Shown here: in pieces, positions 14,264 to 47,145 of the stretch
How the letters are laid out: every line of letters starts with the position of its first letter
Position numbering within the stretch: position 1 is the stretch's first letter
From: Thermoplasmatales archaeon
GTDB taxonomy: Archaea; Thermoplasmatota; Thermoplasmata; Thermoplasmatales; Thermoplasmataceae
Assembly: GCA_014874365.1 (NCBI GenBank)
Contig: JACWAH010000006.1
Coordinates: 1 to 53,305, forward strand
Direction: 5' to 3'
Length of the DNA: 53,305 nucleotides
Position numbers and translations under genes: made by a program
Notes under the pieces: model-generated
Seen by the model: only the letters and a program-made list of their open reading frames with translations
Told to the model about the DNA's origin: nothing
The model's database searches: none

Positions 14264-15808
14264 TCATGGAAACAGCTTTTGCACGCTCCTGTCCATGTCT
14301 ATCACCAGAAGCTTTGGGTCTCTGCCTTCCTTAAGCCAGTTAAGCTCTTCCAGTTCTGCGCCGGCTTTCCTTGACTGTACTCCAAACGCTTCTGATATTT
14401 TTTCAATGTCCGTTTGAACATTGAACATTTCCGAGTTTTCCATTTCCGGATAGTAGCTCTTGGAATAGCTCTTCAGTATGGAATATCCTGCGTTATTCAG
14501 CACTACTATTTTCAGTGGCAGGGAGTATCTTTTCAAGGTATAGAGTGCCTGGATTGTGTACATTATCGACCCATCGCCGATAATTGCCAGGACCTTATCT
14601 GAAACCGTTGCAATTCCTGCACTGGCTGGAATTCCCCAGCCAAGCATCCCTGACTTTGCGGTAAAGTATGAATTGCGGGAATACTCGAGCGTTTTCCTGA
14701 CCGTACCGGTATTGGAAATCGACTCGTCGACAATTGCGTATCCACTGAATGCTTTCCTGATTTTCGAAGTAATATAACTGATTCCCATTTTGCGTTTGTC
14801 CCTCGCAGCGTCTCCCGCGCCGGCCAGGTTTTCCTGCGGGGAAAAATCACCCTTTCTCTTTGCCACTGATTCCAGTTTTTCAAGGAATATTCGTGGATTA
14901 CATATATAAGAATCTCCAAGCTTGTTGTCAGGGTTCAACCCGACATAGATGATCTTTTTCCCCTGCAGAAGCGGGGAAGGCAGGTAAGGATACAGGGTTA
15001 TAGTCGCACCGACGAGCAGGATAAGGTCGTGCTTGAGCATCTGAACGTTTATTGGCGTCGAGGCGGGGAGCAAATCACCTGCGAATCCTTTCCTGCTGGT
15101 ATCATATGGGGACCTGCTCGACAAAGGTTCGCCATAAGCTGGGATTCCGAGGATTTCAGTTATTCGTGCAGCCTGGGGGAGTGCATCATATTCGTCTATT
15201 TCGGAACCAAAAATAATTGCCGGGTTGGTGGACGATTCCAGTGCAGCCCATATTTCACTGACTGCCTTGATTTCAAGTAGGTTGTTCTCAGGGAGGTTTG
15301 TTTCCAGCCCTGAATAATAAGACTCCTGGTCCATTATGTTCATTGGGAATGAAAGAAATACAGGTCCTCTGGGAGCCTCCATGCTTATCCTCGCTGCCCT
15401 CTTGATTGCAGGCTCTATGTCGGCAGCATCCCTTATTTCATAACTGTATTTTACTGCTGATCCTACCAGCCCCCTCAAGTCATGGCTCAGCAGAGGTTCA
15501 TAGAACTGGTGCCTGGTATCCTGCTGTCCTGAAGTTATGATTATCGGTGAACGGTTCATCCTGGCCGTGTGAATGAAGGCCATGGAATGCCCGACCCCTG
15601 GCAGGGTGTGCAGGTTGACCATTGATGGCCTTCCCAGGTACTGGGATCGTCCATCGGCCATGCCTACTGAAATGGAGTCGAGAAGCGTGAGGATATAGTC
15701 CTTTATCGACCGCAACATGGGGATTTCAGTACTTCCAGGATTTCCAAACATCGGGAGCAGTTTCAGGTCTTTTATGGTTTCAGAGAAGACCTCGTATGCT
15801 TTCGTCAT
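14264..15808 (-). CDS. Benzoylformate decarboxylase-like TPP enzyme with altered active site
   Basis: 514 residues in three domains. FGNPGSTEIP (Ser26), VNLHTLPGVGH (His67) and TSGQQ match benzoylformate decarboxylase closely, as do IVDES and the TPP motif GDGSIMYTIQAL...NN. Two catalytic positions differ. The TPP-activating Glu (in 'LQEACVVG') is Asp44 here (LLDSISVG), and the His in the 'FRYHQY' region is replaced by Pro (TLYPYL). The enzyme should still bind TPP/Mg and act on a 2-oxoacid or acyl donor, but the rate or the reaction may differ. It is the second gene of a two-gene operon, overlapping the 2-hydroxyacid dehydrogenase by 4 bp. Confidence 0.85.
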   Translation of the reverse strand: MTKAYEVFSETIKDLKLLPMFGNPGSTEIPMLRSIKDYILTLLDSISVGMADGRSQYLGRPSMVNLHTLPGVGHSMAFIHTARMNRSPIIITSGQQDTRHQFYEPLLSHDLRGLVGSAVKYSYEIRDAADIEPAIKRAARISMEAPRGPVFLSFPMNIMDQESYYSGLETNLPENNLLEIKAVSEIWAALESSTNPAIIFGSEIDEYDALPQAARITEILGIPAYGEPLSSRSPYDTSRKGFAGDLLPASTPINVQMLKHDLILLVGATITLYPYLPSPLLQGKKIIYVGLNPDNKLGDSYICNPRIFLEKLESVAKRKGDFSPQENLAGAGDAARDKRKMGISYITSKIRKAFSGYAIVDESISNTGTVRKTLEYSRNSYFTAKSGMLGWGIPASAGIATVSDKVLAIIGDGSIMYTIQALYTLKRYSLPLKIVVLNNAGYSILKSYSKSYYPEMENSEMFNVQTDIEKISEAFGVQSRKAGAELEELNWLKEGRDPKLLVIDMDRSVQKLFP

Positions 15809-16734
15809 ATCACCCGGTAAAGCGGATCTATTCCCTGAACATACTTCAGGACATTGGATATTGTCTCTGTTATGAATCTCCCCTGGCTTTCCATTGTTAC
15901 TCCAGCAATGTGAGGCGAAAATATCACGTTGTCGAGACTGAACAGTTCGGAACTGAAATCCGGGGGTTCTTTCGGATACACGTCAATGCCTGCCATTATC
16001 CCTCTTTTCTTTATTGCTTCTATCAGGGCATCTTCCACGACTACCTCTCCCCTGGATGTGTTAATGAAAATTGCCCCTCCCTTCATCCTTGAGAATTTGT
16101 TCATGTCAAACAGACCCTCGGTCGAATCGGTTAACGGAAGATGAATGCTCACTATGTCCGATTTCTGCAGGAGGGGATCTAATTCAGAAAATCTGGCTCC
16201 AAGCGACTCTTCCTGATCTTCCGTCAGCCTGACTGGATCGTAATAAATGATGTTTGCTCCGAAAAAGAGGAGCCTCTCTGCCAGTTTCTTTCCAATTGCG
16301 CCCATTCCCACAATGCCGAATACCTTTCCTGATAGTTCTCTGGAATTTGTCAGAACCGGCCAGGTACCACTCCTGAGTGTTTTGTCAAAGAAGATCAGGT
16401 TCTTGAGGATTGCCAGCACCATTGCTATAACGTGCTCCGCAACGCTTTCCTTGTTTGCTATTGGAATGTTGGACATGTGAATACCCTTCTCTTTCAGTGC
16501 TGAAAGATCGACGTTGTCATACCCTGTGCTTGCAACCTGGATAAACTTGACCTCCGGCATTTTTGAGATAAGTTTTGAATCAACTGGAGTGAAAGTAGTG
16601 ACAATCAGGACTTCACAGTCAGAGTGCTGAAAATCGGTATTGGTGGAAACCTCAATTCCAGGTAGTATTGAGTTTACGGTGCCCTTGATTTCTTCAATTG
16701 GGAGGAACGGTGGCAGTATTGCAAGAATTCTCAT
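15805..16734 (-). CDS. D-isomer specific 2-hydroxyacid dehydrogenase
   Basis: 309 residues. The Rossmann motif GIVGMGAIGKKLAERL is near residue 140. Catalytic residues are visible as Arg in INTSRGEVV, Glu in DVYPKEPP and His in PHIAG. It lacks any ACT-type C-terminal domain, so it is a glyoxylate/hydroxypyruvate-reductase or D-lactate-dehydrogenase-like form rather than long SerA. Its stop overlaps the ATG of the TPP-dependent decarboxylase gene by 4 bp (ATGA), suggesting the pair interconverts a 2-hydroxyacid and a 2-oxoacid and then decarboxylates it (inference). The ATG is at 16734. Confidence 0.88.
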   Translation of the reverse strand: MRILAILPPFLPIEEIKGTVNSILPGIEVSTNTDFQHSDCEVLIVTTFTPVDSKLISKMPEVKFIQVASTGYDNVDLSALKEKGIHMSNIPIANKESVAEHVIAMVLAILKNLIFFDKTLRSGTWPVLTNSRELSGKVFGIVGMGAIGKKLAERLLFFGANIIYYDPVRLTEDQEESLGARFSELDPLLQKSDIVSIHLPLTDSTEGLFDMNKFSRMKGGAIFINTSRGEVVVEDALIEAIKKRGIMAGIDVYPKEPPDFSSELFSLDNVIFSPHIAGVTMESQGRFITETISNVLKYVQGIDPLYRVI

Positions 16735-16825: not shown

Positions 16826-17230
16826 ATGCCTAAATTTCCGTCAGAAGAGTGGGCAAAGGAATATGTTGACAAATTGAATTCCAACGAATCATACAAAGAT
16901 TCGGGCAGGAAGTGGGAAGGAGACATAACTTTCGTAATAGAGGAGGATGAGGGAAACCCGGATAACGCATACCTGTACCTTGATCTTTTCCACGGAAGTT
17001 GCAGGAAGTATCAGTATGGACTGGATCCATCATCTTTCCCGAAATCAGAATTCAGGTATATTGGAAAGTATTCCAACTGGATCAGGTTGATACACGGCGA
17101 GATTGACCCAATCAAGGGGGTTCTCACAGGCAAATTCAAGCTTGAAGGATCAATGATGAAGATAATGCGTTTCACGCGCGCTGCAAAAGACATGGTAAAC
17201 ACCGCTTCCACCGTTGCCCTGGACCAGTGA
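16826..17230 (+). CDS. SCP2 sterol-transfer family protein
   Basis: 134 residues, a single SCP2 domain. It starts with FPSEEWAKEYVDKLNSN, typical of archaeal and actinobacterial SCP2-like proteins, followed by beta strands (ITFVIEED, AYLYLDLFHGSC) and a helical end with LEGSMMKIMRFTRAAKDMV. SCP2 domains bind lipids or acyl chains in a hydrophobic tunnel. It is the first gene of a plus-strand operon with Fe-alcohol dehydrogenase (6 bp gap) and aldehyde dehydrogenase. That context suggests handling of a hydrophobic alcohol or aldehyde (inference). A TATA-like TCTTTATGTA lies near 16794. Confidence 0.85.
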   Translation: MPKFPSEEWAKEYVDKLNSNESYKDSGRKWEGDITFVIEEDEGNPDNAYLYLDLFHGSCRKYQYGLDPSSFPKSEFRYIGKYSNWIRLIHGEIDPIKGVLTGKFKLEGSMMKIMRFTRAAKDMVNTASTVALDQ

Positions 17231-17236
17231 TTTTAC

Positions 17237-18367
17237 TTGTGGTTTTTCCGCAGCCCGAATGTTGTCTTTGGGCCCGAATCCTTGAGTTTTCTTTCCACAC
17301 TAAAGATTGAACGAGCAGCCATTATCACGGACATGATGCTTGCTTCCTCGGAAATGGTAAAGCTGGTCATCAAGACCCTGCCAAAAGGATCGGCTAGCAG
17401 GATATTCTCAGACTTCTCGCCTGAACCTGATTTTGAGGAGATATCCAGAAACCTGAAAGGCGTCTCTGAATTCCAGCCGGACTGGATCATTGGCGTGGGT
17501 GGAGGTTCATCGATGGATGCTTCCAAGATCATTTTTGCACTTTACGAAAGACCGGAAATGGAGCTTTACGACATCACCCCACTTAATCCCCTTGGACTGA
17601 GACAGAAATCGAGGCTGGTTGCAATACCAACTACCAGCGGTACAGGATCAGAATGTTCATGGGCAGCAGTAATTTCAGACAAGAAGGAAAGGAGAAAGAA
17701 TGAACTGGCATCCGTGGAGATACTGCCGGATTATGCCATACTGGACCCGGAGATGGTGCTGAAACTGCCCAGGCTACAGACCGTCAGCACTGCTGTGGAC
17801 GCAATAACTCATGCAATTGAATCTTATACGAGCACATGGAACAACCCGTATTCTGATGCCCTTGCGGAGGAGGCTCTATCACTGATCCTGCACAATATTA
17901 AGAGTGTACTTGACAACCCGGACAATGTGGAAACCAGGAATCTTGTCCACATAGGCGCATCAATGGCTGGCCTTTCGTTTTCCAATTCCCAGATTGGGAT
18001 GGCACATGCTCTTGGACATGCCATGGGAGCAGTCTTCAGGCAGCCGCATGGAACTTCGGTTGGAATTTTCCTTCCTGCAGTTGTTGCCTTAAATAGCATT
18101 AATTCGATAGAAAGGTTCAACAGGCTTAACCTCGCCTTTCCTGCAGAATTAAGGGAAAAAGATCTGCAGAGTTCACTGCGAAAACTATTCAAAATAATAG
18201 GACAGCCGCTGAGCCTTATGGATGCTGGAATAACCCGGGAGCAGTTTGATGAGTCAAGGGACGAACTGGTATCCCTTGCGATGGAGTCCACCGGGATGCT
18301 TACGAATCCATACGAAGCCTCCACTGAAGAGGTTGAAAAGGTGCTGGAGGAATGTTATGGAAAGTGA
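17237..18367 (+). CDS. Iron-containing alcohol dehydrogenase
   Basis: 376 residues. WFFRSPNVVFGPESL is the usual N-terminus of this family, which supports the TTG start at 17237. GVGGGSSMDASK (near residue 85-96) binds NAD(P). The metal ligands are in AVDAITHAIESY and GMAHALGHAMGAVFRQPHG. The enzyme interconverts an alcohol and an aldehyde or ketone. Its 3' end overlaps the aldehyde dehydrogenase gene by 11 bp, so alcohol to aldehyde to acid is the likely joint route. The substrate is not identifiable, but SCP2 upstream hints at a hydrophobic one. Confidence 0.92.
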   Translation: MWFFRSPNVVFGPESLSFLSTLKIERAAIITDMMLASSEMVKLVIKTLPKGSASRIFSDFSPEPDFEEISRNLKGVSEFQPDWIIGVGGGSSMDASKIIFALYERPEMELYDITPLNPLGLRQKSRLVAIPTTSGTGSECSWAAVISDKKERRKNELASVEILPDYAILDPEMVLKLPRLQTVSTAVDAITHAIESYTSTWNNPYSDALAEEALSLILHNIKSVLDNPDNVETRNLVHIGASMAGLSFSNSQIGMAHALGHAMGAVFRQPHGTSVGIFLPAVVALNSINSIERFNRLNLAFPAELREKDLQSSLRKLFKIIGQPLSLMDAGITREQFDESRDELVSLAMESTGMLTNPYEASTEEVEKVLEECYGK

Positions 18368-19889
18368 AAAGGCAAAAGTAAGGCATTACGGGAACTTAAT
18401 TGCTGGAGAGGAAGATTTTCATGGTACCCGGAAAGAGGTCATCAGTCCACTGGACGGAAACCTGTTCGCTTATTCAACGGTGGCTGGACGTGAAGAATTG
18501 AGGAAGGCAATAGATCTTGCCTATGATTCATATCATGGAAAATGGGGGAGGACCTCTCTTCAGGAGAGAAAGAGGCTGCTTTTGAAGCTGGCTGAAATCA
18601 TTCAGGAACGATCGGATCAATACTCAACCCTGGAGACCATGAACACAGGGAAAACCTTGAGGCAGAGCATGTTGATGGACATCCCTCTCGGCATCGAGCA
18701 CATCAGGTATTTTGCGGTCGAGAATGAATTCGGGACAAGCAGGAACATCGAGCATCCTGAATATCCAGGTAGCAGTGGAATTGTACAGAACGTGCCAATG
18801 GGTGTAATTGGCGCAATAGTTCCATGGAATTTGCCTTTCCTTATGGCAGTCTGGAAAGTAATTCCTGCACTTACTGCAGGGAACTCTGTGGTGCTCAAGC
18901 CGTCAACGCATACCCCTTTGACTGCGCTGGAGCTTGCAATTGACATAAGGAGGGCTGGTTTTCCGGATGGTTCAGTAAGCGTGGTAAACTGCCCAGGACC
19001 AGTTGCAGGAAAGGAGATGGCGGAGAACCGCAAGGTTGGAATGGTCAGCTTCACGGGCTCTACCGAAGTCGGGAGGAGCGTGGCTGTGGGATCGGCAAAG
19101 AATCTTAAGAAATCCACCCTGGAGCTGGGCGGGAAGTCACCGAACATAGTTCTGGAGGATGCTGACGTAAGGCAAGCGGCCAGCGGCGTGATGTTCGGGA
19201 TTTACCTTAATTCCGGGCAACTTTGCGAATCTGGAAGCAGGCTGCTTGTCCATTCCGCAATAAAGGAGAAATTCCTTGCTGAATTAATGAAGCTCATGAA
19301 GAGGCTCAGGCCAGGAAACCCGATGTCCATGGAAACGGATATCAGCGCCATTACGACTTTAGGTCAGAAAAGGAAGATAGAGATGATGGTGAGGGAGGGG
19401 ATACAGGGCGGCGCATCAGTATTTTACAGGAAGGACGTTGATGGCCAGGTTCCAAGCAAGGGATTATACTACCCGCCAACGGTTCTTTCAGGTGTAGATC
19501 CTGAATCAGAAATTGCGAAGGAGGAGATTTTTGGGCCTGTCCTGAGTGTGCTGGAATTCAGCAGCGACAGCGAAGCGATTGAGATTGCCAACCGATCAGA
19601 ATACGGGCTGGCCGCAGGGGTCTGGAGCAGGAACAGGGAGAGGGCAACAAAACTTGCTGGGGAGATAGAAGCTGGAACTGTATGGGTCAACCAGTACCAC
19701 TTGCTTTCTGCGGCCGCCCCAAGAGGAGGTTTCAAAAGAAGCGGGTTAGGCAGGGAATTGGGACTGGAAGGCTTGATGGAACTTACGCAGACCAGGCATA
19801 TCTTCGTGGGAGCCGAAGATAGCGAGATGGATGAGGTTGAGTTTGGCCTCCTGCTGCCACCTGAATCTGGAGACGAAAAAAGCCAATAA
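18357..19889 (+). CDS. NAD(P)-dependent aldehyde dehydrogenase
   Basis: 510 residues from ATG 18357, which I chose because the open frame upstream of it lies wholly inside the alcohol dehydrogenase gene. PWNLPFLMAVWKV and KPSTHTPLTALEL bind NAD, and FTGSTEVGR is the conserved Rossmann loop. The catalytic Glu is in LELGGKSPNIV, the catalytic Cys in NSGQLCESGSR, and EEIFGPVLSVLEF is the C-terminal landmark. It is closest to the betaine/broad-specificity ALDH group. It is coupled to the Fe-ADH by an 11 bp overlap and ends convergently with the lipid-kinase-like gene. Confidence 0.94.
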   Translation: MESEKAKVRHYGNLIAGEEDFHGTRKEVISPLDGNLFAYSTVAGREELRKAIDLAYDSYHGKWGRTSLQERKRLLLKLAEIIQERSDQYSTLETMNTGKTLRQSMLMDIPLGIEHIRYFAVENEFGTSRNIEHPEYPGSSGIVQNVPMGVIGAIVPWNLPFLMAVWKVIPALTAGNSVVLKPSTHTPLTALELAIDIRRAGFPDGSVSVVNCPGPVAGKEMAENRKVGMVSFTGSTEVGRSVAVGSAKNLKKSTLELGGKSPNIVLEDADVRQAASGVMFGIYLNSGQLCESGSRLLVHSAIKEKFLAELMKLMKRLRPGNPMSMETDISAITTLGQKRKIEMMVREGIQGGASVFYRKDVDGQVPSKGLYYPPTVLSGVDPESEIAKEEIFGPVLSVLEFSSDSEAIEIANRSEYGLAAGVWSRNRERATKLAGEIEAGTVWVNQYHLLSAAAPRGGFKRSGLGRELGLEGLMELTQTRHIFVGAEDSEMDEVEFGLLLPPESGDEKSQ

Positions 19890-19930
19890 CTAAACTCGGG
19901 AGGTCCTGCTCAAATTGGATCTGCGCCATT

Positions 19931-20851
19931 CTAAAGATGATAAAAAGTAAATGATTTGTTTAGGACTTCTAGTTCTACAGGCACGTTTCCGAAGTTCTCC
20001 CCATCCGCTTCCATGGGTGCAGAATCGCCTGTGATAGAGAGTTTACTTGTCTGCAGGTTTGTGACTGCTGGATCGGTAACATAAGTGCCTTTTACCAGTT
20101 TATTCAGTTTCAGCAGCAACTCCAACTTTCTTATCTCCCTGATTATGTGCAGGTCCAGGATTCCATCAGAAAGGCTGGAATTTATGGATGCTTTCATCCC
20201 TCCACCGAAGTATCTTCCGTTGGCGATCACAATTTCCGGGGTCCTGATATCGATCTTTCCAAAATCCCCTTCAAGCGTGAGAGAATGGCTCTTCAGCCTG
20301 AACACTTCCCTGATCGAGGATGTGAAAAATGTCCTTTTAGTCCTGTTCTTCACTGAATTAACCCTCTTCATCACTTCCGCGCCGTATCCTACTTCCAGGA
20401 TGTTCATGAATAACCGGTTTCCGTTGCCCGTATGGCACATAACTGCATCGATTGCAGTCGTTTTTCTCCCGGATAACGCTTTGACCGCACCTTCCACCGA
20501 AGTTATGTTAAAACACCTTGCGAGGTCCGATCCTGTTCCGGCAGGAACCACAAGAATTTTCGTTTCCGGGTGATCAATAAAACTCTGGCATACGCTGTTG
20601 ACAGTCCCGTCTCCTCCCACGATTATGAGTGAATCAGGATTTTCGCTGGCAATTTCCCTGCCAACTCTGGCGCTGTCTGCCTCATCTTTAGTCTGAATGA
20701 TTCTTACCTCATAACCTGAGAGTAATTCTTTCACCTTTTTCGCTACCTGGAATGAATCACCTTTCCCTGAAGCAGGATTGACAATAAGCGGGATGCTGGC
20801 AGCCATCTCTATGTGACCGCTTGGGTATATATTAACCTGGTTTGCGGTCAC
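19931..20851 (-). CDS. Diacylglycerol kinase/YegS-like lipid kinase
   Basis: 306 residues. IPLIVNPASGKGD is the conserved N-terminal motif, VGGDGTVNSV is the nucleotide-binding GGDGT, PAGTGSDLAR is the second glycine motif, and SDGILDLHII and MEADGE follow in the C-terminal beta domain. The family phosphorylates lipid hydroxyls such as diacylglycerol or sphingoid bases. Archaeal homologues lack known substrates but may act on archaeol-type lipids. The GTG at 20851 overlaps the stop of the AGPS-like gene by 4 bp (GTGA). An internal ATG at 20806 just before the first motif is an alternative start. The 4 bp overlap argues for joint function. Confidence 0.88.
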   Translation of the reverse strand: MTANQVNIYPSGHIEMAASIPLIVNPASGKGDSFQVAKKVKELLSGYEVRIIQTKDEADSARVGREIASENPDSLIIVGGDGTVNSVCQSFIDHPETKILVVPAGTGSDLARCFNITSVEGAVKALSGRKTTAIDAVMCHTGNGNRLFMNILEVGYGAEVMKRVNSVKNRTKRTFFTSSIREVFRLKSHSLTLEGDFGKIDIRTPEIVIANGRYFGGGMKASINSSLSDGILDLHIIREIRKLELLLKLNKLVKGTYVTDPAVTNLQTSKLSITGDSAPMEADGENFGNVPVELEVLNKSFTFYHL

Positions 20852-22365
20852 GAGAGAACTGGATCGGCTAACATCTCCATCAGCCTGGTATGCGATTCAT
20901 CCAGGTATCCTGACAACTGCGTCCCGATCCCATGGTGATGAGACAGGGAACCTCCACTCTTCAGGAATGCAGACACTATCTCTTTCCTGAAAACCTGGAG
21001 ATGCTCAGTCTTTTTAGGGGTATTCAGCACGAAGCTGAAGTAGAGACAGCAACCTTCCCTGTACTGGTGGGACATGTGGGACATTATGAATCCCTTAATG
21101 TTGCAGGATGCAAGGAGTTCATTGAAGGTATTTTTAACTTTCAGGTAAAGCTCGAACGCCTTCTCCCATGAAACTGACGTTTCCAGCGTATCAACAACCA
21201 TTCCGGACTTCCAGAGCAAGTTTGCGACCAGAGGTCTTTCGAAACGCGTCATTTCCCACATCTTCGCAGGAGTGGATGAGATCTTGGCAGCGTTCTCACG
21301 GATATTCTTGTAGGAATTTCCGCTGTCTATCGCGATGGCTATGCAACCGGATTTGAATCCACGCACTCCAAGATATTTATCCAGGACCTTCTTCATTACG
21401 CTACTACCGGCTTCGGAAAGTGCAATTTCCGTTTCAAGGGAATCTGATATCCTCAGCACATCCGGGAATGTGTCGAGCTTGCTGACGCTCTCTATTGCAT
21501 CGCTGAAGGACTTGAAGAAAAAGGAAGAATATTTCCTCTCTTCCGTTTTCTTGTGCGTCTTAAAGTACACTTTTGAGATTATTCCGTTCCTGCCCTCGCT
21601 CCCAAGCGCAATTGCTTTCCCGGACACTCCAATGGAGTTCCTTGGCGTTATGCTGTCCCTGATTGTTCCATCAGATCTTACAATCTCGACACCAAGTACC
21701 AGGTCCTCGATGTCGCCGTACCTGTTTGACTCCTGCCCTGAAGCCATGGTGGAGACCCAGCCTGCAACCGATGAGTGCATGAATGATTCCGGGAAGAAGC
21801 CAAGCGTGAGACCTCGTCTTGCGGCTTCATTCTCCGCCTGGAAGCCAGTCATGCCTCCGCCGATGACTGCAATCCTGTTGTTCATCTCAAATGACTTGAG
21901 TTTTGAAGTGTCGATGCTGACCGAGGTATCGGCTGGTTTCTGGGAAACTCCACCGGTAACTGATGACCCCCCTCCGAATATCGTCGCCTTGATCCCAAGG
22001 TTCTTCAGGTTGAGCATCATCTTTTCAAGCTCTGCCTCCTCCGGAAACAGGACGGCATCCGTCACTTTTGGGATTTTGTTCTCGGAAAGCATGCTGATCT
22101 CAAGCGAGGATTTTCCCACTGACTTCGAAAACCTGACATTTGGCTCATAGCTTATGTCTGAAACCCCGGTATTTTCGGAGTCTATGAATTTCTGGTTATC
22201 TGGATCAGCCCGTTCGGTGAAATCGACATACCCGTCCCAGACATCCCCGTTTATCCTTGCACCCAACAGGGATTGCAGGGAGTCGACAGATAAACCCTGA
22301 CTATTGTGGGCAACCGGATCCCCGTAAAGAACGTAGATCCTTCCAACATGTTTAGGATTGATCAT
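20848..22365 (-). CDS. FAD-linked oxidase, alkyl-DHAP synthase (AGPS)-like
   Basis: 505 residues. The PCMH-type FAD domain has GGGSSVTGG (residues 131-139), then SVAGWVSTMASGQESNRYG and DIEDLVLGVEIV (199-229) and GSEGRNGIIS. These match alkylglycerone-phosphate synthase more closely than glycolate oxidase. The C-terminal catalytic segment GGSLSHHHGIG (His 476-478) and the Tyr in HQYREGCCLYF also match AGPS. AGPS swaps an acyl for an alkyl group on acyl-DHAP to make ether lipids in eukaryotes and some bacteria, without net redox. In an archaeon the role is unclear: an unusual ether lipid, or another FAD reaction (inference). The ATG is at 22365. Confidence 0.82.
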   Translation of the reverse strand: MINPKHVGRIYVLYGDPVAHNSQGLSVDSLQSLLGARINGDVWDGYVDFTERADPDNQKFIDSENTGVSDISYEPNVRFSKSVGKSSLEISMLSENKIPKVTDAVLFPEEAELEKMMLNLKNLGIKATIFGGGSSVTGGVSQKPADTSVSIDTSKLKSFEMNNRIAVIGGGMTGFQAENEAARRGLTLGFFPESFMHSSVAGWVSTMASGQESNRYGDIEDLVLGVEIVRSDGTIRDSITPRNSIGVSGKAIALGSEGRNGIISKVYFKTHKKTEERKYSSFFFKSFSDAIESVSKLDTFPDVLRISDSLETEIALSEAGSSVMKKVLDKYLGVRGFKSGCIAIAIDSGNSYKNIRENAAKISSTPAKMWEMTRFERPLVANLLWKSGMVVDTLETSVSWEKAFELYLKVKNTFNELLASCNIKGFIMSHMSHQYREGCCLYFSFVLNTPKKTEHLQVFRKEIVSAFLKSGGSLSHHHGIGTQLSGYLDESHTRLMEMLADPVLS

Positions 22366-25622: not shown

Positions 25623-26291
25623 ATGTACTATCAGGCTGCATTCGTTACCCTCTTTGTTTTCATTGCCAGCTTCATGCTCTCGGTTTTGATTAGTCTGAGT
25701 TACCTCACGTCAAAAAAGAAGAGCGTTATTTTCTGGGGAACTGGCATGTGGTTATTTGCACTGGCATCTTTGCTTGAAGTTTTCTTTGCAACTGGATTCG
25801 TCAACATTCCACTAATCGATTCATATCTCTTCCTTGTTGCCCTGCTTGTTCAACTTCTTTCAGTTGGCTCACTCCTTTTAATAGGCAGGAGGATTCTGAA
25901 ACTGGTTTATGGAGTCTATGCGATTGCTACTGATGCATTTTTGTTGTTTGCACTTTATACAAACAATCCGGGTAACATAATTACCAATGGCGTTGTTTTT
26001 GGGAATCTTCCGGTGTCAGTTACAGTCGGTTCCATTCTAATAACAGTACCTGCAGCAGCTATCCTGCTCGTGATTTCTGCTTTGTCTTACCTAAAGAAAA
26101 GGGACTGGAAACAGCCCAGCATCATATCCGGCACAATTGTTTTGAGTGCTGCCGGAGCCCTTTATATATCCTTCATGCCCTCATTCCTCTACCTTGCCGA
26201 ACTGTTTGGCATCGTGCTTCTCTGGTTTGGCTTCGTTGATTTCGACAGGATTCCAGTGTTTGCGGGGGTGAGGAAACATGTCCATGGCTGA
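25623..26291 (+). CDS. Seven-helix membrane protein of the cytochrome bd operon
   Basis: 222 residues from ATG 25623, with about seven hydrophobic helices and very short loops (for example SYLTSKKKS and ISALSYLKKRDWKQ). No histidine-rich heme motif or kinase domain is visible and I do not recognise the family. Its 3' end overlaps the cydA start by 14 bp, and cydB overlaps cydA in turn, so it is probably an extra subunit or assembly factor of the oxidase (inference). An upstream ATG at 25587 is in frame but lies in the AT-rich promoter-like sequence. Confidence 0.75.
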   Translation: MYYQAAFVTLFVFIASFMLSVLISLSYLTSKKKSVIFWGTGMWLFALASLLEVFFATGFVNIPLIDSYLFLVALLVQLLSVGSLLLIGRRILKLVYGVYAIATDAFLLFALYTNNPGNIITNGVVFGNLPVSVTVGSILITVPAAAILLVISALSYLKKRDWKQPSIISGTIVLSAAGALYISFMPSFLYLAELFGIVLLWFGFVDFDRIPVFAGVRKHVHG

Positions 26292-27636
26292 TTTTGACAG
26301 GTTCCTATTTGCCTATACTATCGGATCCCACATTATACTGGTCTCAGCCAGCATTGGATTGATCCTCCTCCTGGTAATACTTGAACTGATGATATTGAGA
26401 AAGAACGATTCACGTTATCTCACTCTTATTAAGAGGCTGAAGAAGATGTTCGTGATATCCTTTGGAATTGGGACTGCCAGTGGGATAGTTATGGCCGTAG
26501 AGATGGTGGCGCTCTTCCCCAATTTCATGACACTCGTATCTGAAACTGGAGCGATTGCCCTGTTTTACGCAGAGATCTTCACCTTCTTCCTGGAGACTAT
26601 TGCACTTGTCCTTTACGTTTATTTCAACGGGGTGTTCAAGTGGAAATACACTTCAGCGGTTCTTTCATTTGTAGTTCTGTTCGGCACCCTGCTTTCTGCG
26701 GTGTTCATAACCATGGTGAATGCATGGATGAATACACCTGATGGATTTACCCTGGTCAGCGTTAATCCGTTGATCGTAACAAACGTGGATCCCTGGGCGC
26801 CATTTGCCACTGCTTCCACGTTTTCCCAGGTCGCCCATGTTCTTACTACCACAGTGTTGGCAGGTGCTATGTTGCTCGGCGTGTTCTTTGCAATCAGGTA
26901 TTTGAGGGCTGAAAATGACAATGAGAAGTCCATGGCATCCTCCGCGCTGCACATTATTGGGGTAATTGGAATTGTAGACATAATCCTGGCCGGTATTTCC
27001 GGGAGTCACGAGATGGCTACTATTCTTTCTCAGCAGCCCTTGAAGTATGCTGCTTTTGACCTCAACTACGCCGGTGGATCCAACATGCCTGAGACCCTTT
27101 TTGGGTACCTTCTTGGCACAAAGGTCATGTGGGCACTCTCCATCCCGGGGCTGCAAAGTTTGCTGGCCAGTTTTGAGACTGGCAGCGGAGTTGTACCGGG
27201 CCTTAGCCAGTTTCCTGCGAATGAATGGCCGCCGCTTCTCGTGCACACAACATTCGACATTATGGTCGTCGGCGGACTATTGATTGGGTTATTCCTGTTC
27301 ATAATGTTTCTGTTGTTCGTAATGAAGAAAGACCCACTGAAGTACAGGTTCATGATTTACCTCTTTCCGATCGCGGGTATTTTCACATTCATCGTTTATG
27401 AACTGGGCTGGGTAACGGATGAAGTTGGAAGGCAGCCCTGGATTGTTTATAACGAAATGACGGTCACCCAGGCTATCAACACTTCTCCAGGGTTACTAAT
27501 CCCGGGATTACTGATAGTCGCCTTCTACCTGATCCTCGTTCCTGCAACGTTCTACTTCTTTTCGCGAATTTATAGATCCAGCCGGGCTTCTGCCGATTTA
27601 GGCAGGAAAGAACCTGAAGGGGGTGTTAATTATTAA
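26278..27636 (+). CDS. cydA: Cytochrome bd-type terminal oxidase subunit I
   Basis: 452 residues with about nine membrane helices. His18 in IGSHIILV matches the b595/d-site ligand. FYAEIFTFFLET carries the conserved acidic pair, AWMNTPDGF matches the GWMQ.P motif, and His in FSQVAHVL matches the b558 ligand with Met in DIMVVGG as its partner. VGRQPWIVY is the GRQPW motif before the last helices. The quinol loop is of the short type. Membrane-bound, it reduces O2 with electrons from quinol. It is the middle gene of an overlapping three-gene operon. Confidence 0.93.
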   Translation: MSMADFDRFLFAYTIGSHIILVSASIGLILLLVILELMILRKNDSRYLTLIKRLKKMFVISFGIGTASGIVMAVEMVALFPNFMTLVSETGAIALFYAEIFTFFLETIALVLYVYFNGVFKWKYTSAVLSFVVLFGTLLSAVFITMVNAWMNTPDGFTLVSVNPLIVTNVDPWAPFATASTFSQVAHVLTTTVLAGAMLLGVFFAIRYLRAENDNEKSMASSALHIIGVIGIVDIILAGISGSHEMATILSQQPLKYAAFDLNYAGGSNMPETLFGYLLGTKVMWALSIPGLQSLLASFETGSGVVPGLSQFPANEWPPLLVHTTFDIMVVGGLLIGLFLFIMFLLFVMKKDPLKYRFMIYLFPIAGIFTFIVYELGWVTDEVGRQPWIVYNEMTVTQAINTSPGLLIPGLLIVAFYLILVPATFYFFSRIYRSSRASADLGRKEPEGGVNY

Positions 27637-28576
27637 TTCTATTTTCTACCTTGATTTCCTTGTTTTCGGGATATTTGCTTCGCTGCTGATTTCTGAAATT
27701 ATGGGAAGCATAATTCTGCTTCTCTGGTGGGAGAAATACAGGAAGCCCGTCCTGCAGTATATTGTGCCAATCTGGGAAGTGACCGGCACGTTCGGTGCAT
27801 TCTGGGTAGTGCTTTCAGATTTTGCCTTCCCCAGCATCCTCATACCTCTTGCGGAGTTGTATTCCGGTGCAATCATGATATTCCTCATACTTTTCGTAGC
27901 AAGGAACAGCACAATTACGTTCGGTGAATTCATTATCAAAAAAGGCTGGCTGGACGAAAGGAAGCTTTACTCTGGTTACGCTCTGTCATCCATTTTAATC
28001 GGTGTGGTTGTTCTCTATGTGCTGTCAGGCGTAATAGGAGGATACGGCGTCAGTCTTGGCCCTGTGAACGTAAATGCGATGACTTGGATATCCAAACCAG
28101 CAGACCTCGTTTTCCTGATAGGAGCGGTAATACTGATGATAGGATTAGCTCCGGTATTTTACGGGGCCACGGAAATGGCAAAGTTCTCTGTTATTTTTAC
28201 TGCGATTGGGCTTATAGTGTCTTCTGTTTCGCTCTATCTTTACGAGGGGAGCGCTCTTTCATATCTCGTGATAATTCCAATTTGCCTGACGATTCTTCCT
28301 GCGATTTTTTTCAATATCAGGCAGTTGGTGAGTATCGTAACCAACAAGCTGGTATTTATTTCCTGGTTATCTATTGATATATTCTCCCTTAATTTCCTGG
28401 TCTACCCCAACGCGTTCGGCCAGTCTGTCCCGGTTGATGCCTTAACGACTTCGGGGCCTATGACAGCAGCATATTTCGATATAACGCTTGTTGGCGGGAT
28501 TATACTTGCCGTACTTATTGCTCTTTACGCAATAGCAGTGTCGAGGAAGAATAAGATGGCTATATCTGAGGTTTAG
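27623..28576 (+). CDS. cydB: Divergent cytochrome bd-type oxidase subunit II
   Basis: 317 residues with about eight membrane helices. The N-terminal helix and LQYIVPIWEVTGTFGAF...FAFPSILIPLA retain the CydB pattern ('I.P.W....' then 'FAFP'), but the usual W-D-G-N-E segment is W-E-V-T-G, and overall likeness is weak. Position supports the call: the GTG start at 27623 follows a GGGGG ribosome site and overlaps cydA by 14 bp. No heme ligand is required of this subunit. It may be a Thermoplasmatales-specific form. The identity is inferred from the operon plus a partial motif. Confidence 0.75.
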   Translation: MLIINSIFYLDFLVFGIFASLLISEIMGSIILLLWWEKYRKPVLQYIVPIWEVTGTFGAFWVVLSDFAFPSILIPLAELYSGAIMIFLILFVARNSTITFGEFIIKKGWLDERKLYSGYALSSILIGVVVLYVLSGVIGGYGVSLGPVNVNAMTWISKPADLVFLIGAVILMIGLAPVFYGATEMAKFSVIFTAIGLIVSSVSLYLYEGSALSYLVIIPICLTILPAIFFNIRQLVSIVTNKLVFISWLSIDIFSLNFLVYPNAFGQSVPVDALTTSGPMTAAYFDITLVGGIILAVLIALYAIAVSRKNKMAISEV

Positions 28577-30393: not shown

Positions 30394-31143
30394 TTATTCC
30401 ACTGAAATTTCGCTGAAGCTGGAAATCACGGGATAAATGCTATCTGGATGTTCTCCGGTCTTTTCCTTCTGCACCCAGCATACCTTGAATCCCGCACTGG
30501 TTGCAGCATCCAGCTCCTGTATTGAATCCGAAAAAAATAGGCATTGATCTTCCCTGATTCCCATAAAGGATGCAATGTTTCTGTAACTGCCCGGATCTGT
30601 CTTCTTTCCCATGGAAGTATCAAAATAATTGCTTATAAAATGCGTGAGATCGCCATATTCGGTCTCCTTGAAAATCAGATGCTGCGCAAGCGCGCTCCCG
30701 GACGAGTATATACATGTAATCTTTCCGTAATCTTCACACTTCTTAAGGAACTGGGGAACGTCAGGGTAAACTCTACTTTTTATTTTGCCGCAATTGTAGC
30801 CTTCTTCCCATATCAGTCCCTGGAGAGTCTTCAAAACTGGAGTTTTACTATCCATCCCGATGAGCCAGCGCACATAACTGGTTGCATTCTTGATCTGGCT
30901 GCCAGGGTCTGCGTCCAGCCAATCGGGAGGGTTCTTTCCTTCAATCAGATCATGGTCGTGCTGGGATTTCAATTCTCCTAATAGCAGCTGAATTTCAGAA
31001 ATTGCGGAATTCTTCTGCAGGAACGCTTCCACATTGTCGTTTGCATAGTTGAATAGAGTTGTGTGTACGAAGTCTATTGGTGTAGTCGTACCTTCTATGT
31101 CGAGAAGTATGACCCTGGTTTTGCCTGTGGAGATTCTTTCCAT
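30394..31143 (-). CDS. mtnC: Enolase-phosphatase E1 of methionine salvage
   Basis: 249 residues of the HAD superfamily. LLDIEGTTTPIDFVHTTLF is the diagnostic MtnC opening, with the nucleophile Asp in DIEGTT. IYSSGSALAQHLIF is HAD motif II, KKTDPGSYRNI is the Lys motif III, and LFFSDSIQELDAA is motif IV. It converts 2,3-diketo-5-methylthiopentyl-1-phosphate to the acireductone. It is the last gene of mtnB-mtnD-mtnC, 15 bp after mtnD. The ATG is at 31143. Confidence 0.92.
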   Translation of the reverse strand: MERISTGKTRVILLDIEGTTTPIDFVHTTLFNYANDNVEAFLQKNSAISEIQLLLGELKSQHDHDLIEGKNPPDWLDADPGSQIKNATSYVRWLIGMDSKTPVLKTLQGLIWEEGYNCGKIKSRVYPDVPQFLKKCEDYGKITCIYSSGSALAQHLIFKETEYGDLTHFISNYFDTSMGKKTDPGSYRNIASFMGIREDQCLFFSDSIQELDAATSAGFKVCWVQKEKTGEHPDSIYPVISSFSEISVE

Positions 31144-31158
31144 TTTACAATCCGGTAT

Positions 31159-31710
31159 TCAATGCGACTTGAAATAAGCTGGTCCCATGCAAACCGGCTG
31201 GTATTTCCCATCTATCCCTGTGTTGGTGTAATATGGCGTCCACCCGGATTTGTTCTGGAAAAGCCGGATTGCGGTTATGTGCCTGTCGTCACAGAGATCG
31301 AACCAGTGATGAGTGTTTCTTGGGACTCTTATCAGGTCGCCTGCGGAAACCTCAATTACTGCCACTGGACCATTAAAGGGATGAATGTGGAATAACCCCC
31401 TGCCGGATATCGTGAAACGCACCTCGTCCTCGTCATGCCAGTGTTCCTTTCGGAACTTTGCGAGCATATCGTCGATTCCCGGGGTTTCTGAGTCAATATC
31501 GATCACGTCCGCGGTAGTGTAACCCCCTTTTTCCTTGAGCCTTTCTATTTCCCCTGCATAAGTTTCGAGCACTTGTTCCTGTGATGCGTGGGATGGGACC
31601 TTTTCAATGTCCCACTTTTCGTATCCTATCCCTATCCGTTTTAGATAGTCATGAATTTCTCTTTCTGCGCTTATGGCCCGGTTCTCGTCTGGTATCGTTA
31701 CATAAACCAT
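31159..31710 (-). CDS. mtnD: Acireductone dioxygenase
   Basis: 183 residues, single cupin. EHWHDEDEVRFTISGRGLF carries the H-x-H...E metal ligands and RNTHHWFDL the last His. AVIEVSAGDLIRVP is the second cupin motif. It oxidises acireductone: the Fe form yields the 2-oxo acid of methionine and the Ni form an off-pathway product. It sits between mtnB (27 bp upstream) and mtnC (15 bp downstream). The ATG at 31710 gives the normal length. Confidence 0.93.
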   Translation of the reverse strand: MVYVTIPDENRAISAEREIHDYLKRIGIGYEKWDIEKVPSHASQEQVLETYAGEIERLKEKGGYTTADVIDIDSETPGIDDMLAKFRKEHWHDEDEVRFTISGRGLFHIHPFNGPVAVIEVSAGDLIRVPRNTHHWFDLCDDRHITAIRLFQNKSGWTPYYTNTGIDGKYQPVCMGPAYFKSH

Positions 31711-31737
31711 TCTTTTGCCTCCATTCGAATTAAGCGC

Positions 31738-32478
31738 CTATTCTCCAAAATCTCCGGCGCTTTTGGTTCTGCCATATATCTCCAGCATAAATTCCAGTAC
31801 TTCGACATGGCGCTTAGCCTCCTCGATACTGGAACCCCACGTATACAGCCCGTGTCCCCTTAACAGGACTCCATGTATATCGCGATGTTCCCTCAATAGG
31901 CCTTCAACTTTTGTGGAGAGGGACTTTACATCCTGGGAATTCTCAATTATCGGTATCCATTCTCTGTGTTCATGGGTCTTTACGTTGCTCAGTCCCTTAA
32001 GCATCTCATAGTTTTTCAGTTCAATTCCTTTCCTGTGAGCGAAAGCATCAGACAATATTGTTGACCATACAGAATGAGTGTGAAACACTGCTCTGGCAGA
32101 ACTGTTTTTGACTATTGCAATGTGAATAAGCGTTTCACTTGAGGGGTTGAAGTTCCCCCTGACCACCCTTGAATCTTTGTCAACTTCGATTATCCGGGAT
32201 GCATCCAGCTGCCCCTTATCAACCCCCGAGGCTGTTATTGCAAGTTTTAACGGAACATCCTGGAGCACTGAACTGAGGTTGCCGCTGGTTCCGAATAACC
32301 AGCCTCTCCTGTAAAACTCTCCCCCTACCCTGGAGAGTTGTGAAGAAATGAATGCAAATCGGGCTTCCTCCTGGGCGTCAAGCCCAATTGTGGAAAAGGA
32401 CAATTTAAGACACACCTCCGGGCAATTTACGTTGCAGGTAATGGAATTCAGCAGATGGCTCAGGCGGGAATTTGCCAT
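31738..32478 (-). CDS. mtnB: Methylthioribulose-1-phosphate dehydratase, class II aldolase fold
   Basis: Up to 246 residues. The class II aldolase/adducin fold shows FGTSGNLSS, HTHSVWSTI (zinc His pair), a catalytic Glu in the IELKNYEMLKG region and LLRGHGLYTWGSS. Together with mtnD and mtnC downstream this is MtnB, the dehydratase of the methionine salvage pathway. The first 40 residues or so are absent from typical MtnB proteins and contain several Cys. The true start may be further in, though no strong alternative ATG is present. It heads the operon. Confidence 0.88.
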   Translation of the reverse strand: MANSRLSHLLNSITCNVNCPEVCLKLSFSTIGLDAQEEARFAFISSQLSRVGGEFYRRGWLFGTSGNLSSVLQDVPLKLAITASGVDKGQLDASRIIEVDKDSRVVRGNFNPSSETLIHIAIVKNSSARAVFHTHSVWSTILSDAFAHRKGIELKNYEMLKGLSNVKTHEHREWIPIIENSQDVKSLSTKVEGLLREHRDIHGVLLRGHGLYTWGSSIEEAKRHVEVLEFMLEIYGRTKSAGDFGE

Positions 32479-45986: not shown

Positions 45987-47145
45987 AAACGTTTTCATTA
46001 TAGGTGCTGGAGAAACAAAATTCGGTGAACTCTGGGAAAGGTCTCTCAGGGAGATTGCTGTTGAAGCTGGTTTGAAGGCTATAGAAAACGCCGGGATTTA
46101 CTCGAAGGACGTACAGGTTTTATATGGCAGCAACAGCCTGGGCGGAACCATCAATGCACAGAACGACATTGGATCGCTGATCGCTGATTTTTCCGGCATT
46201 GCCAGTAATCACATACCTGCAATCAGGATTGAAGCCTCAACAGCATCCGGTGCAGCTGCAGTCAGGGAGGCTTACCTTGGAATAAAGTCGGGGGAAATAG
46301 ACTGCGCGATAGTAGGTGCGGTCGAAAAGATGACCGATCTGTACGGCAATGAAATGCTGGATCACCTTGGTACCCTGCTTGACAGGGAGTGGGAAGCATT
46401 TTTCGGTGCTACGCCTGCGGCTTTGGCCGCTCTCAGTGCGAGGAAATACATGCATGATTTCAATGTGCCAAAGGAGAAGCTGATGAGCATATCAGTCAAC
46501 GATCACCTTAACGCAACAATGAACCCGGATGCACAGTACAGGAATAAGCTGACAATGGAAACTGCTATGGGATCGACCATGGTTGCAGACCCCCTAAACA
46601 TAATGGACTGCAGCCCCATGAGCGATGGTGCCGCTGCGCTTGTAATGTGTTCAGAATCATTCATGAAGAAGAACAAAAAAGAAGGTATCAAGATAATGAG
46701 TTCCGCTGTATCACAGGATTTCCTTGCCCTTCACAGCAGGAATTCCTATTACACAATGGATTCAACCGTCCTGGCAGCAAAATCGGCACTTGAGAAATCA
46801 GGAATAAAGCATAAAGATGTATCATTCGTAGAACTGCATAATTCCTTCAGCATTTACGGACTGACAGCAATCGAGGACCTCGGCTTTGCTGAAAAGGGAA
46901 AAGGGAAGCAGGTTATCGACGAAGGCATTGGAGTTAACGACAGCCTCCCAATAAACCCCTCTGGAGGATTGAAGGCGAAAGGAAATCCCATAGGTGCAGT
47001 TGGAGTGGGGCAGTTCGTTGAAGCCGTTACGCAGTTAAGAGGAAAGGCCGGACAGAGACAGGTCAAGGATGCAAAGTTCGGGATGCTGCATAATATAGCG
47101 GGAACGGGTTCGACTTCATATGTGCATATCGTGGGAGGTGAATAA
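45973..47145 (+). CDS. Thiolase-superfamily protein (acetoacetyl-CoA thiolase position) lacking the usual Cys
   Basis: 390 residues from ATG 45973 (GTG at 45970 is adjacent). It has the two-lobed thiolase fold: [27 protein letters not shown]-like segment [31 protein letters not shown] and [21 protein letters not shown]. The nucleophile position (usually E-x-x-C-A-S-G) is Thr90, and the usual GHPxGATG His is Asn (GNPIGAVG). The other His (ELHNSF) remains. Operon position says acetoacetyl-CoA thiolase channelled to HMGCS, but the altered residues question catalysis. It is followed by DUF35 with its ribosome site inside this gene. Confidence 0.85.

Follow-up and report, generated by a model that had tools for sequence, protein, structure and literature searches.

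The best described relatives of the protein considered here are the alkyl-dihydroxyacetone phosphate (alkyl-DHAP) synthases, AGPS or ADPS (EC 2.5.1.26; mammalian 4BBY and Dictyostelium 2UUU in the PDB). In the known bacterial operon for making ether lipids, AGPS is accompanied by FAR-GNPAT and a reductase-type protein, and the occurrence in bacteria of AGPS/ElbD-like genes that lack both the partners to be expected and lipid data has been noted as unexplained (PMC9131029). Animals cleave alkylglycerol ethers, to a long-chain aldehyde, by means of AGMO, an oxygen- and tetrahydrobiopterin-dependent enzyme unrelated to AGPS that has been called the sole known alkylglycerol-cleaving enzyme (2021 review, PMC7911779). 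Here we describe an AGPS-family flavoprotein encoded in a 53,305-nucleotide stretch of a Thermoplasmatales archaeon genome (contig JACWAH010000006.1, assembly GCA_014874365.1), the whole of which is referred to below as the window. The locus shares an AGPS homologue with the myxobacterial ether-lipid operon MXAN_1676-1674 (PMC9131029), but not the biosynthetic partners of that operon; GNPAT, a fatty-acyl reductase (FAR) and a reductase give way, in the operons of related archaea, to GlpD and a lipid kinase. On balance, and with moderate confidence, we consider the locus to be part of a pathway for the breakdown of ether glycerolipids.

The flavoprotein is encoded by an intact open reading frame (ORF) of 505 amino acids (aa) (20848..22365, minus strand) with Pfam FAD_binding_4 and FAD-oxidase_C domains, in which every AGPS landmark motif quoted in an earlier note on this DNA is present. 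Using phmmer against the PDB, we obtained Dictyostelium AGPS (E 2.7e-53) and guinea-pig AGPS (2.9e-39), whereas the best D-lactate dehydrogenase (D-LDH) reached only 3.7e-10. In a tree of 48 proteins (IQ-TREE, LG+C20), the flavoprotein and both eukaryotic AGPS sequences fell in one clade (98/99), within which its own group forms a long separate branch, and GlcD, LctD, D-LDH and D2HGDH were separated from it at 100/100. An AlphaFold2 model (mean pLDDT 86.9, pTM 0.88) was consistent with this placement: the top 37 Foldseek matches were all AGPS (TM 0.85, E 1.8e-33), followed by D-LDH at 3.3e-21. The gene is under purifying selection, with dN/dS of about 0.08-0.12 in sister pairs (for L033-L034, dN is 0.026 and dS 0.33; the pairs L041-L043 and L048-L049 are comparable).

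The active site agrees. Tyr578, Arg419 (mutated in PDB 4bc7), His615-617, Glu529 and Cys576 of the mammalian enzyme are all kept, the T/S position 309 is kept as Ser, and Asp303 is replaced by Glu. The expectation that the AGPS active-site residues would be retained was thus borne out for the Tyr, Arg419 and His positions and failed at Arg515, which corresponds to A381. GlcD and LDH proteins have other residues at nearly all the AGPS catalytic sites compared, and their own catalytic residues (E, H, xEH) were not found in the flavoprotein, which has R, Y and HHH at the aligned sites. Identity as a GlcD or D-lactate dehydrogenase was therefore rejected on the PDB search, residues, tree and fold alike. 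The genome's genuine glycolate/lactate-type dehydrogenase is a GlcD encoded next to a GlcF-like Fe-S protein gene on a 4.8-kb contig (C24; L001 560-3188). Taken together, the data establish the protein as a genuine member of the AGPS family. An ether-lipid system is plausible since this assignment survives phylogeny; its chemistry is predicted to be AGPS-like, acting on a putative alkyl substrate.

We next consider the genes that accompany AGPS. Among 200 genomes of the class Thermoplasmata, 36 carry an AGPS gene, and neighbourhoods of up to 20 kb were examined around 32 AGPS hits; a scan of genome contigs yielded only two close relatives. In most of the neighbourhoods AGPS is followed by a GlpD-type glycerol-3-phosphate (G3P) dehydrogenase and then by a YegS/Rv2252-type lipid kinase. 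Of the 36 AGPS-positive genomes 28 have GlpD, as against 16 of the 164 AGPS-negative ones (Fisher p 5e-16, without correction for phylogeny), and in 23 of the 28 genomes with both the two genes lie on the same strand, no more than 201 bp apart. Within the window's own family the figures are 14/14 and 3/13, respectively, and in the sole sampled congener of the window's species AGPS, GlpD and SCP2 are absent together. At 19 loci of the near clade, the genes found within 10 kb of AGPS were the kinase (17), the lipid carrier SCP2 (14), GlpD (13), an alcohol dehydrogenase (ADH; 11), an aldehyde dehydrogenase (ALDH) or aldehyde:ferredoxin oxidoreductase (AFOR; 11), a phospholipase C (PLC)-type phosphoesterase (6) and a hydroxyacid dehydrogenase with a thiamine diphosphate (ThDP) enzyme (5). 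At two loci (L046 and L049) AFOR replaces ALDH beside SCP2 and ADH; such an exchange of unrelated enzymes suggests that what counts at the locus is the oxidation of aldehyde. At L037, L046 and L047 the gene immediately after the PLC-type gene encodes a protein of 188-204 aa from one conserved family; the two members tested had no Pfam match.

On the observed gene identities, residues, linkage and gene content, we propose a breakdown scheme whose direction, substrate and individual catalytic steps are all predictions from sequence. A secreted PLC/phosphatase-like enzyme, encoded elsewhere in this genome and adjoining the locus in relatives, would together with esterases release a mono-alkylglycerol from scavenged lipid, and the SCP2 protein would carry the hydrophobic intermediates. 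The YegS-type kinase would then form alkyl-glycerol-phosphate, and the GlpD-type dehydrogenase would oxidise its C2 hydroxyl to give alkyl-DHAP. Working flavin-dependently but in the opposite direction to the animal enzyme, the AGPS-type flavoenzyme would let a carboxylate or water replace the alkyl chain, yielding a fatty alcohol and acyl-DHAP or DHAP. Finally, an iron-containing ADH (Fe-ADH) followed by ALDH (or AFOR) would convert the alcohol via the aldehyde to an acid for beta-oxidation. The likeliest feed would be mono-alkyl glycerols derived from the ether lipids of bacteria or eukaryotes, or else lyso-ethers. Given that C2 of alkyl-DHAP is not a chiral centre, mono-alkyl ethers of both handednesses could in principle be acceptable once C2 is free. 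A single substrate could in this way account for the kinase, GlpD, AGPS, ADH, ALDH/AFOR, SCP2 and PLC together. A quinone-linked GlpD favours oxidation, the opposite of the reductase that synthesis requires.

The gene content of the genome is consistent with catabolism. Its GlpD gene lies on another contig (C19), beside a gene of the dienelactone-hydrolase family, and the product matches G3P dehydrogenases of the PDB (3da1, E 7e-51; 2qcu, 1.8e-45) and contains the motif SSKLIHGGLRYL. The DAO_C cap domain (PF16901) was not detected in it, the cap being degenerate; the gene was found with a protein query. No FGGY glycerol kinase was found in the genome, leaving GlpD without an obvious glycerol-kinase partner or free-glycerol role, and ordinary glycerol catabolism is accordingly disfavoured as its function. 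Seven acyl-CoA dehydrogenase matches point to fatty-acid oxidation. No PF01553 (GNPAT/PlsC-type) acyltransferase was present in the genome, and no FAR-type gene among the scanned neighbours of AGPS, i.e., neither the DHAP acyltransferase nor the fatty-acyl reductase of the myxobacterial type. Ketoacyl synthase (PF00109) gave only weak partial matches, in frames of 391-406 aa that we read as thiolase-type, and no clear fatty-acid synthase was seen; one such match, at 46156-46383 of the window (plus strand), falls in a 391-aa frame whose product may be a thiolase or HMG-CoA synthase-like. It is the presence of acyl-CoA dehydrogenases, and the lack of such an acyltransferase, a clear fatty-acid synthase or a glycerol kinase, that lead us to favour ether-lipid catabolism. 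A PLC/acid-phosphatase family protein, with a signal peptide and a C-terminal membrane anchor apparent by eye, is encoded on contig C4.

Several points weigh against ether-lipid breakdown. The direction established for AGPS is the synthetic one, and in this genome GlpD is unlinked to AGPS. The genome is 96% complete, so the gene absences are not certain. In archaeal diethers the C2 hydroxyl is not free but etherified, so intact diethers could not enter directly and a direct attack on them is disfavoured. Arg515 is replaced by A, G or Y throughout the flavoprotein's clade, so the substrate or the reaction may differ; this residue of the AGPS active site is not settled as family-defining, and the homologues from Streptomyces and Nonomuraea retain it, as do those of the archaeal families f12, f22 and f24. 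Related archaeal and bacterial AGPS-like clades pair GlpD with FGGY sugar-type kinases, so that the GlpD link is not lipid-specific. Within the window's family, SCP2 occurs in 7 of the 13 AGPS-negative genomes, and SCP2-ADH-ALDH also exists without AGPS; at L037 and L050 these three genes are joined, in a single co-directional run, by those for the hydroxyacid dehydrogenase and the ThDP enzyme.

The loss of Arg515, and the FGGY kinases and transporters (for sugar or G3P) that partner sister clades among bacteria and in archaeal family f9, would also fit an AGPS-like enzyme that acts with GlpD and the kinase on another glycerol- or polyol-phosphate (DHAP-type) substrate rather than an alkyl ether. 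We regard this as unlikely, since the FGGY-paired clades branch outside the clade (98/99) that unites the window's protein with eukaryotic AGPS, and since the kinase found with AGPS is of a lipid-kinase type and SCP2 and PLC genes occur as neighbours. The co-directional run at L037 and L050, and the AGPS-less genomes with SCP2, raise a further alternative: two unrelated modules side by side, one of AGPS and kinase for lipid, the other (hydroxyacid dehydrogenase, ThDP enzyme, SCP2, ADH and ALDH) for 2-oxoacid decarboxylation and aldehyde oxidation of an Ehrlich-type or alpha-oxidation kind. This appears improbable, as SCP2 lies within 10 kb of AGPS at 14 of the 19 loci, its order and orientation varying, where chance would predict about 1%, and as SCP2 and GlpD matches are about 400 bp apart even in genomes (G198 and G133) where GlpD is off the operon. 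Equally improbable is biosynthesis, in which AGPS would convert acyl-DHAP and fatty alcohol to alkyl-DHAP, destined for a non-isoprenoid ether lipid of the membrane: family membership, the conserved Tyr/Arg/His cluster and an ADH that could supply alcohol in reverse speak for it, but it faces the missing acyltransferase, the lack of a convincing fatty-acid synthase, a conserved partner (GlpD) that oxidises, ALDH/AFOR and PLC neighbours, and a standard archaeal geranylgeranylglyceryl phosphate (GGGP) synthase. The earlier note's remark that archaea use the latter enzyme holds here, and ordinary archaeal lipids are thus made; its proposal that the set makes a non-isoprenoid ether lipid finds no support, and the salvage of host or neighbour lipids that it also raised fits as breakdown but not as remodelling.

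Comparable gene sets are found in bacteria. Streptomyces fungicidicus (L086) has a cluster of GlpD, a TetR gene, an AGPS-like gene and a YegS/DAG kinase, and Tsukamurella (L092) is alike; the AGPS/GlpD/kinase trio is in this way present in Streptomyces and Tsukamurella plasmids. As in the archaeal operon, the three enzyme families are adjacent; unlike it, GlpD is divergent with the TetR gene in between, the AGPS of L086 keeps Arg515, and the SCP2, ADH and ALDH genes seen in the window are absent from the stretches compared. The glpD1-Rv2250c-Rv2251-Rv2252 genes of M. tuberculosis (Rv2249c-Rv2252) share the layout of the actinobacterial cluster. Rv2252 has been described as a diacylglycerol kinase (PMC3229680). 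More distant AGPS-like clades of Novosphingobium and Paracoccus occur with GlpD and an FGGY kinase, the Paracoccus locus also having genes for enoyl-CoA hydratases and an aldehyde dehydrogenase. A distinct AGPS-like clade, archaeal family f9 (L055, L057 and L058), has as its partners an oxidoreductase of the DAO family and an FGGY kinase; its set of a GlpC/Hdr-like CCG protein, a BON-DAO-[2Fe-2S] flavoprotein and the kinase resembles GlpABC/GlpK with an AGPS-like member added.

AGPS, the YegS kinases and GlpD each belong to a known family; what is new is their coherent joint context and the testable catabolic hypothesis that follows. A literature search in which most subscription journals lay outside the scope found no description of AGPS, GlpD and a YegS kinase as a pathway, and the same search returned nothing on archaeal AGPS, AGPS with glpD in Mycobacterium or archaeal ether cleavage. 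With the conserved kinase-GlpD-AGPS set, the breakdown of ether lipids by microbes gains a concrete pathway that can be tested. More tentatively, the set may represent a widespread, oxygen-independent cleavage of glycerol alkyl ethers common to Thermoplasmata and actinobacteria, in which kinase and GlpD make alkyl-DHAP and AGPS acts in reverse or as a hydrolase. Such a pathway would, if true, give a function to "orphan" AGPS genes in organisms without the rest of ether-lipid synthesis, including the related actinobacterial gene set.

In the window, the genes for the kinase, SCP2, Fe-ADH and ALDH lie where the earlier note had placed them, with Pfam matches above cut-off. The YegS/Rv2252/BmrU-type lipid kinase (19931..20806, minus strand; TIGR00147, 132.4 bits against a cut-off of 118.65) has DAGK_cat and YegS_C domains. 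On the plus strand are the 134-aa SCP2-domain lipid carrier (16826..17230; PF02036, 35 bits against a cut-off of 21.3), the Fe-ADH (17237..18367; PF00465/PF25137, with PDB Fe-ADH matches) and the ALDH (18354..19889; PF00171, 493 bits). The GTGA overlap that had been reported between the flavoprotein stop and the kinase start is probably not real, judging from aligned sequences. The mechanically called kinase ORF does start at GTG 20851, but this adds 15 residues without counterpart in the aligned kinases. In L033 and L034, from the two closest relatives, the same spot is a stop (CTGTAG and CTTTAG) and no start, and the kinase begins at a GTG 41 nucleotides downstream of the flavoprotein stop, i.e., at the position of ATG 20806 in the window, to which we reassigned the start. 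The overlap was thus rejected as a coupling of the two genes, which are adjacent and co-directional, their overlap not demonstrated.

Two recurrent neighbours have uncertain roles: a D-2-hydroxyacid dehydrogenase (15805..16734, minus strand; PF02826/PF00389) and a ThDP-dependent 2-oxoacid decarboxylase-like protein (14264..15808, minus strand; PDB benzoylformate decarboxylase, E 3e-59). Together (14264-16734) they could remove one carbon from 2-hydroxy acids, in a manner like alpha-oxidation, or serve amino-acid breakdown. Alpha-oxidation of phytanyl chains by this pair was also considered; the ThDP enzyme best matches benzoylformate decarboxylase. Elsewhere in the window, two overlapping membrane-protein ORFs (26278-28576, plus strand) resemble cytochrome bd-type oxidase subunits, and three consecutive genes (30394-32478, minus strand) look by sequence like methionine-salvage genes, i.e., enolase-phosphatase, acireductone dioxygenase and methylthioribulose dehydratase-like.
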